A DNA stretch of 36,778 bases from Pseudomonadota bacterium (GTDB lineage Bacteria; Pseudomonadota; Gammaproteobacteria; UBA6429; Thiohalophilaceae). The position numbers and the translations under genes were made by a program. Below are positions 21,534 to 32,454 of the stretch, one piece after another; position 1 is the first letter of the stretch; each line of letters opens with the position of its first letter. The stretch lies in the NCBI GenBank assembly GCA_022340685.1, contig JAJDNN010000181.1:1-36778 (forward strand), in the 5' to 3' direction. The notes under the pieces were generated by a model. The model was not told the DNA's origin. It did not search any database and worked only from the letters and a program-made list of their open reading frames with translations.

Positions 21534-23009
21534 TCAGGCTAGACGTTTACGTTCATTGGATGGTGGGATTGATAATGATTCCCGGTACTTGGCAATGGTG
21601 CGGCGCGCCACATTGATACCCTGATCGGACAGGATCGTGGCAAGCTTGCTGTCGCTTAGCGGTTTTCTGGGGTTTTCCGCGGCAATCAGCTTTTTCATCA
21701 GGGCGCGAATGGCTGTGGCAGAGCATTCACCACCGTTACTGGTTGAGACATGACTCGAGAAGAAGTATTTCAGTTCAAAAATCCCGCGCGGGGTATGCAT
21801 GTACTTTTTGTTGGTGACGCGGGAGATAGTGGATTCGTGCATATCCACGGCTTCGGCAATGTCATGTAATACCAGGGCCTTCATGGCTTCTTCGCCGTGT
21901 TCCAGGAACTCGCGTTGTCGTTCGACGATGCTGCTGGCGACCTTGAGCAGCGTTTCGTTACGGCTCATCAGGCTTTTGATGAACCAGCGCGCTTCTTGCA
22001 GGTGGTTTTTCAAAAAGGTGTTGTCTGCGTTGCTCTGTGTTTGTTTGACCAGGCTGGCGTAATGCGGATTGACCCGCAAGCGGGGCGCCGCGTCCGGATT
22101 GAGTTCGATCTTCCACTGCCCCTTGACCTTGGTGACGATAACATCCGGGATAATGTATTCAGGTATTTCGGCTGTAATCTGGCTGCCGGGGCGCGGATTG
22201 AGCGAAGTGATCAGTTGCATGATTTCTGCCAGCTCGGCCTCGCCCACCTTGAGGCGGCGCGCGAGTTGTCCGTACTCGCGGTGGGCAAGCAAATCAAAAT
22301 GGGATTCGACCAGCTCCTGCGCCTTTTCCCGCCAGTCCACGTCGGAAGGTAACTGACGCAATTGCAGCAGCAGGCTCTCACGCAGGTCGCGAGCGCCGAC
22401 CCCGGGCGGGTCAAAATTCTGGATGCGGTGCAGAACGGCTTCCACTTCATCTTCTTCGATGCCCAGTTCCTCGACCAGTGCCTGATGGATATCGGCGGTG
22501 CTGATGGCGAGGTAGCCGTCGTCGCTGATGGAGTCGATGATGAATTCGGCAATCGCGCGATCAGTTTCGGAAAACGGTGTCAACTGCATTTGCCAGCGCA
22601 GGTGGGCCTGCAGGCTTTCACCCGCCGCGCCGACCGGTTCAAAGTCGCGGTTGTCGGTGGTGTTACTGGCCGAACTGGCCGGCGAGGCAATATTGTCGTA
22701 GATGTCATCCCAGGTACTGTCGACCGGTAGATCTTCGGGAATGTCAGATTCGCCAGCGGCGGAAGGTTCGGTGATGGAACCATCGTCGCCATTGTTGGTG
22801 CTGGTGTCGGCGGAGGCGGCGTTGTTGCCGGCGGTGTCGGCATCGGTCTCTGTGTCCTCTTCTACTTCCAGCATGGGATTGGCGTCGAGGGCTTCCTGAA
22901 TCTCGGTCTGTAGTTCAAGGGTCGAGAGTTGCAGCAGCCGAATGGCTTGCTGTAACTGGGGAGTCATGGTCAGGTGCTGACCGAGTCGGAGTTGTAGGGC
23001 CTGTTTCAT
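21534..23009 (-). CDS. rpoN: RNA polymerase sigma-54 factor
   Basis: N-terminal [29 protein letters not shown] and RpoN box [21 protein letters not shown]. Confidence 0.98.
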
Positions 23010-28884: not shown

Positions 28885-29553
28885 ATGTCCCGTGACTATC
28901 CCATGCTAATAGGCGCCTGCGGCTGGACGCATGAGGCGTGGGCAGGGTCCTACTATCCGGATGATCTCCCGTCCGACTGGCGTCTCGGATTCTATGCTAA
29001 CGAGTTTCCCGTTGTCCTGGTGACCCGAAACGAGTGGGAGCGTGCCGATGCTGACCCACAACAGTGGTGTGAGGACAGCGATAGTTCGCTGTTGTTTGTG
29101 AGCGAAGTGACTGCTGATGACCCCTCAGATGCAGAGATGCAGATTCGGCAAATTAGGCTTTTGGGCGAACGTTGTACCGGTATTTTATGGCGAACCACGC
29201 TTCATAATGATGCACCAGCCTTGAATGGGCTATTGAATGGTGCAGGTCCGGCATTACCGGTGTGCGTGGATTTTGGTGAGGCACTTCCCGATGAGGCAGT
29301 AAGATCACTGTTAAGAAAGCGTCAAACCGGATGGTGTTGGCACGGTAATGATGATTCGACTGGCTTGCAGATCGGGCCACTTTCAATCGCCCGTGTCGCA
29401 AGCAACGACGCTGATCTCAGGCAACTGCGACGCCTGGTGGAAACCTGTCTTGCAGCGGTGCGTGACGACAGATGGGTAATTCTTTTGTTTGATGGCAATC
29501 CGCCGGAGGTAGAGCGCATTCAAAAAGCGGGTGTGATCATGGGGCTGTTGTAA
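28885..29553 (+). CDS. divergent DUF72/YecE-like protein
   Basis: N-terminus MLIGACGWTHEAWAGSYYPDDLPSDWRLGFYANEF resembles the DUF72 start; the remainder is divergent. Start could be 28858 (TTG), 28885 or 28903. Confidence 0.65.
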   Translation: MSRDYPMLIGACGWTHEAWAGSYYPDDLPSDWRLGFYANEFPVVLVTRNEWERADADPQQWCEDSDSSLLFVSEVTADDPSDAEMQIRQIRLLGERCTGILWRTTLHNDAPALNGLLNGAGPALPVCVDFGEALPDEAVRSLLRKRQTGWCWHGNDDSTGLQIGPLSIARVASNDADLRQLRRLVETCLAAVRDDRWVILLFDGNPPEVERIQKAGVIMGLL

Positions 29554-29586
29554 TGCGCAGTTTATATCGGGTGTTTACAGGGGTAA

Positions 29587-29603
29587 CTGGCACCTATTTT
29601 GCT
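29587..29603 (+). promoter_or_regulatory. sigma54 (-24/-12) promoter upstream of ppdK
   Basis: CTGGCAC-CTATT-TTGCT matches the YTGGCACGrNNNTTGCW consensus at the key GG/GC elements with 10 nt between GG and GC; 77 nt before the ATG at 29680. Confidence 0.7.
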
Positions 29604-29679
29604 GAATTATTTTAAATATTAATCACGGGTTCGCGGTTAACCCAGTATGGGCATGCTTTTTAACTTAGGAATTTGATTC

Positions 29680-32454
29680 ATGACAATTTTAGATGACACT
29701 ACCAGGCAGGTTTACTCATTCACTGAGGGGGACGGTAAGAACAAGCACCTGTTGGGTGGTAAGGGTGCCAATTTGTGCGAAATGACCCAGATTGGCCTCA
29801 ATGTCCCGCCAGGTTTTGTGATTTCAACCAAGGCGTGCCTGGCATACCTGGCATCGAGTTCTGGTGCGTTACCAGCTGGTCTGATGGATGAAGTGCGGGC
29901 ACAGATGCAGGCGGTGGAAGAGGCCACCGGTAAAGGCTTCGGAAACGCCGACAATCCGCTGCTCATATCGGTCCGCTCTGGTTCTGCGATGTCCATGCCG
30001 GGGATGATGGATACGATTCTTAATCTGGGGCTCAATACGACGACATTACAGGGGGAAATCAAGCAAACCGGGGATGCACGTTTTGGATATGATTCGTACC
30101 GCCGCTTTATTCAACTTTTCGGCAAGGTTGCCCTTGGTATTGATGATGAACTGTTTGATGAGCAGTTTCAGGAAATCAAACAAAAAGCGCATGTCACAGA
30201 AGATGTAGGTCTTTCGGCCAGTGATCTCGAGGAAATCAGTAAACGATTTCTCGATGTTGTGCAAAACCAGACCGGGCGTCCCTTTCCCGAAGACCCATTC
30301 GATCAACTCGAGATTGCCATCAAGGCGGTATTCAATTCCTGGATGGGCAAACGGGCGGTGGATTATCGGCGTGAATTCAACATTACACCGGAGATGGCAA
30401 ATGGCACAGCGGTGAATATTTGCACCATGGTGTTCGGCAACCGGGGCAACGACTCCGCCACCGGGGTGGCTTTTACCCGCAACCCGGGCACAGGTGAAAA
30501 CAAATTGTTCGGAGAATATCTTGTTAACGCCCAGGGCGAAGATGTGGTGGCTGGAATTCGCACACCGAAACCAATCGATCGTCTTGCCAATGAAATGCCG
30601 GAATTGGCAAGGCAGCTTGAAGAACTGCGGCAAAATCTGGAACAACACTACCACGAAGTTCAGGATTTTGAATTTACGATTGAACGCGGTACGTTGTACT
30701 GCCTGCAAACCCGTAATGGAAAAATGAACGCTACGGCGATGGTACGTACGTCAGTTGAAATGGAAAAGGAAGGACTGATCAGCCGGGACCAGGCTCTGTT
30801 ACGTATTGCGCCTGACCACCTTGAGCAAATGCTCTATCCCAGGCTCGATCCTGACGCGCGGGCGGTTCCCCTGGCGCAGGGCTTGCCTGCTTCACCGGGC
30901 GCGTCAAGTGGGCACGTTGTGTTCGATGCAGACCGGGCAGAAAAACTCGGCAAAGAGGGGCAGCGGGTTATCCTGGTTCGTGAGGAAACCAAACCCGAAG
31001 ACATCCATGGCTTTTTTGCGTCCCAGGGTATTCTGACCAGCCGGGGGGGCAAGACCTCCCACGCCGCCGTGGTAGCCCGCGGCATGGGTAAGCCATGCGT
31101 GGCGGGGGCTGAGGGTATTCATGTGGATGTGCAGCTTCGCGAAGCATTTGTTGGTGATACAACGATTCGCGAAGGTGATTTGATTACAATCGATGGTACC
31201 ACCGGTAATGTCTATGCCGGTGAGGTGCCAACAGTGGAAGCGGATTTCTCTACTGAGCTGAATACTCTGTTAGGCTGGGCCGATGAAGCGGCCAGGCTCA
31301 AGGTTCTGGCCAATGCAGATACCGCAGTTGATGCGCGGCGCGCCCTGAAGTACGGGGCCTGTGGTATTGGCCTGTGTCGTACTGAACGTATGTTCAATGA
31401 CACAGAGCGTTTACCAGTGGTGATCGAGATGATTGTCGCGGAAACTGAAGAACAGCGTGAGGCGGCACTGGCAAAGCTGTTACCCATGCAGCGGAGTGAT
31501 TTCAAGGCGTTGTTTCAGGTGATGGCTCCCTACCCGGTTACTGTCCGCCTGCTTGATCCTCCTATCCATGAGTTCCTGCCCTCCGAACACCAGTTGCAGG
31601 ATGAAATTGAGTATTTACAACGCCTCAAGGACACCGTGTATGGAATGGAAGTACTGGCCGGAACCTTGTCGTTGCTGGGTGATCAAAATGAAGTATCCAA
31701 AGAGGCTGAGTCAATCAGGCATCTGGTTGAAGCCCGTCTGGTTGAAGATGCGATTACCAAAAAAGAAACCATGCTGAAAACCGTCCGGGCGCTCTATGAA
31801 ACCAATCCGATGTTGGGTCACCGCGGTGTCAGACTGGGTATTACATTTCCAGAAATCTATACGATGCAGATTCGCGCGATTCTGGAAGCCGCAGCAGAAT
31901 GTATGCAGCAAGGGATTGAAGTCCATCCCAAGATCAAGGTACCGCAGGTGTGTACCGCCCAGGAACTTCTGTATGTGAAAAAATATGTTGAAACGATACG
32001 CGAAGAGGTCGAACAACATTATGACCTGTCGTTGAAGTTCGAGTTTGGCACAATGATCGAGGTGGTGCGGGCCTGCATGCGTGCCGAGAACCTGGCAGAA
32101 GAGGCAGAATTCTTTTCATTTGGTACCAATGACCTAACTCAGGCCACATTCTCATTCTCGCGTGAAGATGCCGAAAACAAGTTCCTGCCGATGTATAACG
32201 ATAAGGAAATTCTTCAGGACAATCCCTTCGAAGTGCTTGATGTCAAAGGGGTTGGCAAGTTAATGGAACTGGCTGTCCAGTGGGGACGTCAGACACGGCC
32301 GGATCTTACGGTTGGGATTTGTGGCGAACATGGCGGGCATCCGGCCTCCATTCGATTTTGTCACAAGGCGGGTCTCGACTATGTATCCTGTTCGGCACCC
32401 CGGGTGCCTGTCGCGCGATTATCCGCTGCCCATGCCGCCTTGCTTGAAGATTGA
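29680..32454 (+). CDS. ppdK: pyruvate, phosphate dikinase
   Basis: 924 aa; swivelling-domain RGGKTSHAAVVARGMGKPCVAG and C-terminal FGTNDLTQATFSFSREDAENKFLPMY. Confidence 0.97.
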   Translation: MTILDDTTRQVYSFTEGDGKNKHLLGGKGANLCEMTQIGLNVPPGFVISTKACLAYLASSSGALPAGLMDEVRAQMQAVEEATGKGFGNADNPLLISVRSGSAMSMPGMMDTILNLGLNTTTLQGEIKQTGDARFGYDSYRRFIQLFGKVALGIDDELFDEQFQEIKQKAHVTEDVGLSASDLEEISKRFLDVVQNQTGRPFPEDPFDQLEIAIKAVFNSWMGKRAVDYRREFNITPEMANGTAVNICTMVFGNRGNDSATGVAFTRNPGTGENKLFGEYLVNAQGEDVVAGIRTPKPIDRLANEMPELARQLEELRQNLEQHYHEVQDFEFTIERGTLYCLQTRNGKMNATAMVRTSVEMEKEGLISRDQALLRIAPDHLEQMLYPRLDPDARAVPLAQGLPASPGASSGHVVFDADRAEKLGKEGQRVILVREETKPEDIHGFFASQGILTSRGGKTSHAAVVARGMGKPCVAGAEGIHVDVQLREAFVGDTTIREGDLITIDGTTGNVYAGEVPTVEADFSTELNTLLGWADEAARLKVLANADTAVDARRALKYGACGIGLCRTERMFNDTERLPVVIEMIVAETEEQREAALAKLLPMQRSDFKALFQVMAPYPVTVRLLDPPIHEFLPSEHQLQDEIEYLQRLKDTVYGMEVLAGTLSLLGDQNEVSKEAESIRHLVEARLVEDAITKKETMLKTVRALYETNPMLGHRGVRLGITFPEIYTMQIRAILEAAAECMQQGIEVHPKIKVPQVCTAQELLYVKKYVETIREEVEQHYDLSLKFEFGTMIEVVRACMRAENLAEEAEFFSFGTNDLTQATFSFSREDAENKFLPMYNDKEILQDNPFEVLDVKGVGKLMELAVQWGRQTRPDLTVGICGEHGGHPASIRFCHKAGLDYVSCSAPRVPVARLSAAHAALLED

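Follow-up and report, generated by a model that had tools for sequence, protein, structure and literature searches.

A predicted sigma-54 promoter upstream of ppdK in a gammaproteobacterium of the Thiohalophilaceae

Promoters that depend on sigma-54 (RpoN) are all-or-none switches requiring an activator. Their geometry is fixed, transcription beginning 12 nt past the C of the GC doublet at −12, and their consensus is YTGGCACGNNNNTTGCW. Pyruvate phosphate dikinase (PPDK), the product of ppdK, catalyses a reversible, PPi-linked step between pyruvate and PEP, and we found no report in the literature of ppdK under RpoN. The closest described systems are from Desulfovibrio, in which pyruvate formate-lyase operons and regulons are under enhancer-binding proteins (EBPs; PMC4641369) and a transcriptome table places the EBP gene Ddes_1643 beside Ddes_1644, labelled 'pyruvate phosphate dikinase' (PMC5701242); the sections of these two papers considered here report no ppdK promoter for Desulfovibrio. 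Regarding the recognition of such promoters, Francke et al., who also give a reduced sigma-54 motif, conclude that, in genomes with sigma-54, sites resembling its promoters are very probably real when they occupy a promoter position, and that site counts ignoring position fail to separate genomes with and without sigma-54 (PMC3162934).

Here we describe a ppdK locus on a 36,778-bp contig, the whole of which was analysed and is called the window below. The likeness to Desulfovibrio, as far as the sections cited go, is that pyruvate-node enzymes there are under, or beside, EBPs (PMC4641369, PMC5701242). The phylum and the genes are different, however, and whereas in those sections an EBP gene lies near its target, none was detected on the 37-kb ppdK contig. 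With that partial precedent in Desulfovibrio pyruvate metabolism, ppdK is an unusual target of a mechanism that is itself known.

Sequence and placement of the ppdK element

The reading of positions 29587–29603 as a sigma-54 promoter draws on five lines of evidence: the sequence, its placement, its rank at the top of the genome sample, and the presence in the genome of a complete RpoN and of EBPs. We consider it quite likely that this predicted promoter of ppdK is genuine.

First, the DNA upstream of ppdK holds CTGGCACCTATTTTGCT on the forward strand, in which the spacer CTATT (29594–29598) lies between the −24 and −12 blocks and C29587 and T29603 flank them (Table 1). The GG (29589–29590) and GC (29601–29602) are separated by 10 nt, the sigma-54 spacing. 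The original prediction had named these blocks, the 5-nt spacer and the GG-N10-GC arrangement, and all are present exactly where it placed them. Against the consensus, the element matches ten of ten block positions, the Y and W flanks and the exact GG-N10-GC, and departs from it in having C, not G, directly after TGGCAC. The exact pattern TGGCACN5TTGC has a single match in the window.

Second, the element lies in the sense orientation in the gap before ppdK, as had been claimed; this gap extends over 126 bp from a stop codon (29551–29553) to the ppdK ATG (29680), and the 76 nt between element and ATG are in the usual range for sigma-54 promoters. The naming of the gene also held, as the protein scores 1276 bits on the profile TIGR01828 (pyruvate, phosphate dikinase), for which the cut-off is 843. 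The upstream frame has a weak coding score and a start resembling a DUF72 protein, and matched no curated family; any upstream activator site for ppdK would fall largely within it.

A GGGTT-N7-AACCC hairpin proposed for the leader fared less well. Its arms are present as described (29627–29631 and 29639–29643), but the folding of the leader is no better than that of shuffled sequences (z = +0.33) and the hairpin is absent from the minimum-energy fold, and we reject it as a regulatory element.

Table 1. Coordinates of features at the ppdK locus and of rpoN within the window
Feature	Position	Strand	Basis
Predicted sigma-54 −24/−12 promoter element CTGGCACCTATTTTGCT	29587..29603	+	Joint top score in 1.36 Mb; unmatched by altered-spacing controls
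−24 block TGGCAC	29588..29593	+	Direct reading
−12 block TTGC	29599..29602	+	Direct reading
Predicted transcription start A, 12 nt past the C of the −12 GC	29614	+	Fixed sigma-54 geometry
Predicted 66-nt ppdK leader	29614..29679	+	Predicted from the start; folding no better than shuffles
GGGTT-N7-AACCC inverted repeat	29627..29643	+	Letters read directly; unsupported as functional hairpin
AGGA, probable ribosome-binding site, 9 nt before ATG	29667..29670	+	Direct reading
ppdK, pyruvate phosphate dikinase, 924 aa	29680..32454	+	TIGR01828 profile match
Upstream ORF, weak DUF72 resemblance	28903..29553	+	E 0.19, below cut-off
rpoN (sigma-54)	21534..23009	−	Activator-interacting, core-binding and DNA-binding domains, RpoN box

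Chance expectation and genome-wide rank

The foremost alternative is that the element is a chance match and no promoter, with ppdK transcribed from a weak or atypical sigma-70-family promoter or by read-through from upstream; we regard this as unlikely. Its best argument is the number of exact ten-base matches in the 2.23-Mb genome, which is 5, where base composition predicts about 4.9 (0.2256^4 × 0.2744^6 × 2 × 2,227,063, by our own arithmetic); a reversed control pattern matches twice. Because the observed number equals the chance expectation, the bare ten-base match is unremarkable genome-wide, and the argument first made for the site, that such a match arises once per 4^10 positions per strand, is right for the window but not for the genome. 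The distribution of the five matches is less even, with two within genes and three upstream in sense, although upstream sense positions make up only about 5.5% of all positions on both strands.

Third, the exact-match count being uninformative, we called genes and scored their upstream segments with a weight matrix, our own approximation of the published sigma-54 consensus, over 1.36 Mb (61% of the genome) and 956 upstream segments. At the natural spacing three upstream sites score at least 17, two of them, including that of ppdK, at 19.4; by contrast, each of 12 scans with altered spacing gave no upstream site of at least 17, which argues against chance. Upstream and in sense, the ppdK element thus agrees with the extended consensus more closely than expected by chance, and it is the joint best site. 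The scan also returned a false positive, a site on contig C23 that scores 17.7 and lies antisense within a gene. What sets the ppdK element apart is its placement upstream in sense together with its joint best extended score, in agreement with the earlier finding that position, and not bare count, is informative (PMC3162934).

The remaining high-scoring sites allow the scan to be checked within the same genome. The site that shares the best score (C34:6272–6289, +, L001; 19.4) is a perfect match, TTGGCACTGGTTTTGCA, which precedes genes of Sel1 type and of SulP (transporter) type, with a divergently oriented sensor kinase/EBP pair on the other side. Another perfect site, TTGGCACTCGCCTTGCT (C118:3846–3863, +, L003; 17.6), lies directly before tungstate-type ABC transporter genes and is likewise divergent from a sensor kinase/EBP pair, making EBP-controlled oxyanion uptake likely there. 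A third (C93:3637–3654, −; 17.7) is upstream of a sulfide-quinone-reductase-like gene, about 73 nt from where that gene probably begins, and a PAS-type EBP gene comes next; the automatic gene call starts too early here, and the site is counted apart from the top three of the 956 segments. Target genes at these three loci are described from reading of the sequence, not from a family search. Additionally, glnA on contig C48 was recovered as a positive control, with a score of 13.1 and two NtrC-like boxes upstream, the classical layout of such a promoter. Since the three sites adjoin EBP genes and glnA was recovered, the matrix scan is validated within this genome, and the position of comparably scoring sites beside EBP genes further counts against a chance match at ppdK. 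The ppdK and glnA elements lie 72–76 nt before their ATGs and would be read by the same form of RNA polymerase; unlike glnA, ppdK has no NtrC-like box, whereas its −24/−12 element is the stronger (19.4 versus 13.1). A further strong site, TTGGCACGATCAATGCT (C9:92–109, +), precedes a gene whose small exported product looks YfdX-like by eye, and then HlyD/EmrB-type pump genes.

Other routes of transcription were sought between the upstream frame and ppdK. The AT-rich stretch 29603–29625 could supply a sigma-70 −10, but a consensus scan found no sigma-70-like promoter at 9 of 12 positions in this gap. No terminator-like site was found there either, consistent with read-through.

More widely, chance alone should produce a perfect consensus match several times in a genome, and placement and altered-spacing controls are what tell real sites from noise.

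RpoN, activators and other ppdK loci

Fourth, the RpoN of this genome is complete by sequence, with all three domains and the RpoN box, as expected of a functional protein. That rpoN lies in the same window had been noted in favour of the promoter; the gene is there, but since sigma-54 acts in trans its proximity is no evidence for the promoter.

Fifth, the genome has ten Sigma54_activat matches, nine above 136 bits and a weak tenth; GAFTGA was read in eight of the proteins, and one EBP is NtrC by curated cut-off. The control by an EBP envisaged in the original prediction therefore has its proteins, a complete RpoN and EBPs, but no recognisable enhancer site upstream of ppdK, in which the locus is unlike known sigma-54 promoters. 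The best match to an NtrC box in 29300–29680 has 4 mismatches, against 1 and 2 at glnA, and since the box is recognisable at glnA and absent at ppdK, NtrC control of ppdK is not favoured. The best inverted repeats in 29380–29600 are no better than in shuffled sequence, and the same holds for those at 29418, 29445 and 29497. An IHF-like site at 29565, with one mismatch, is weak evidence. The 10-mer TTACAGGGGT, common to the stretches upstream of ppdK and of the C34 site, falls inside the C34 sensor gene and has no clear dyad; as an activator site shared with the C34 two-component system it was rejected as chance.

The missing enhancer site is a point in favour of a chance match. It would also suit a roadblock, in which sigma-54 binds without activating and hinders another promoter, or read-through into ppdK, by competition or repression. 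Such non-productive binding of RpoN is known from other bacteria, but the 76 nt to the ATG, the purine at +1 and the ribosome-binding site are the geometry of a productive promoter and no competing promoter is visible, which makes a roadblock highly improbable.

Comparison with relatives adds a second point for chance, as the element is not conserved at other ppdK loci. A search of 36 further genomes from the family gave PPDK-level matches, some of them fragments, in 5, and ppdK is therefore accessory there; the DNA upstream of ppdK had no match in the 39 other family genomes searched, a set without genus-mates. We scanned the upstream regions of the best 80 ppdK loci of the species collection (a few shortened by contig ends) and of five relatives' loci for the element, and none of these 85 regions has a credible −24/−12 site at a promoter-like place. 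The best site among them (L059) lies about 200 nt upstream, in an apparent neighbouring gene. A conserved TGGTACCAGCG(C/T)TGC in L050, L053 and L059, about 200–220 nt upstream, resembles the neighbour's coding sequence and was set aside.

Conservation of the −24/−12 element in relatives, which the original prediction proposed as a check, is thus not observed: it is not kept upstream of orthologues. Loss of the GG and GC in close relatives was to count against the promoter; the closest homologues are indeed without the element, yet protein identity with them is only 82%, their upstream DNA shows no visible similarity to that of this locus, and the regions checked are not syntenic. Because these homologues are not close and have no upstream sequence visibly in common with it, the missing element is no refutation. 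On the sequences compared, the result speaks against a conserved sigma-54 regulon for ppdK and not against a local promoter, and the arrangement appears specific to this lineage.

Predicted control of the pyruvate/PEP step

The reading of the element as the sigma-54 promoter of ppdK, as originally proposed, has in its favour a strong site in the right place and orientation, but draws no support from an enhancer site, from conservation or from the hairpin. If it is right, E-sigma-54 would bind 29587–29603 as a closed complex, a remote EBP encoded elsewhere in the genome would hydrolyse ATP and open it, and transcription would begin near A29614, with ppdK made from the 66-nt leader. The outcome would be on/off control of PPDK, and an activator protein probably acts as the switch for ppdK. 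The prediction is sharp, in that it comes down to one start base and four invariant bases. The genome also has a match to acetyl-CoA synthetase, which has no bearing on the ppdK promoter.

More tentatively, PPDK in this lineage may be under a sigma-54 activator that responds not to nitrogen status but to some other signal, such as redox, sulfur or carbon. An enzyme of central carbon metabolism would then belong to an EBP regulon of which we found no description in Gammaproteobacteria. If the promoter is genuine, a dedicated signal would switch the PPi-linked pyruvate/PEP step on or off in this organism, and its control would not be left to allostery.
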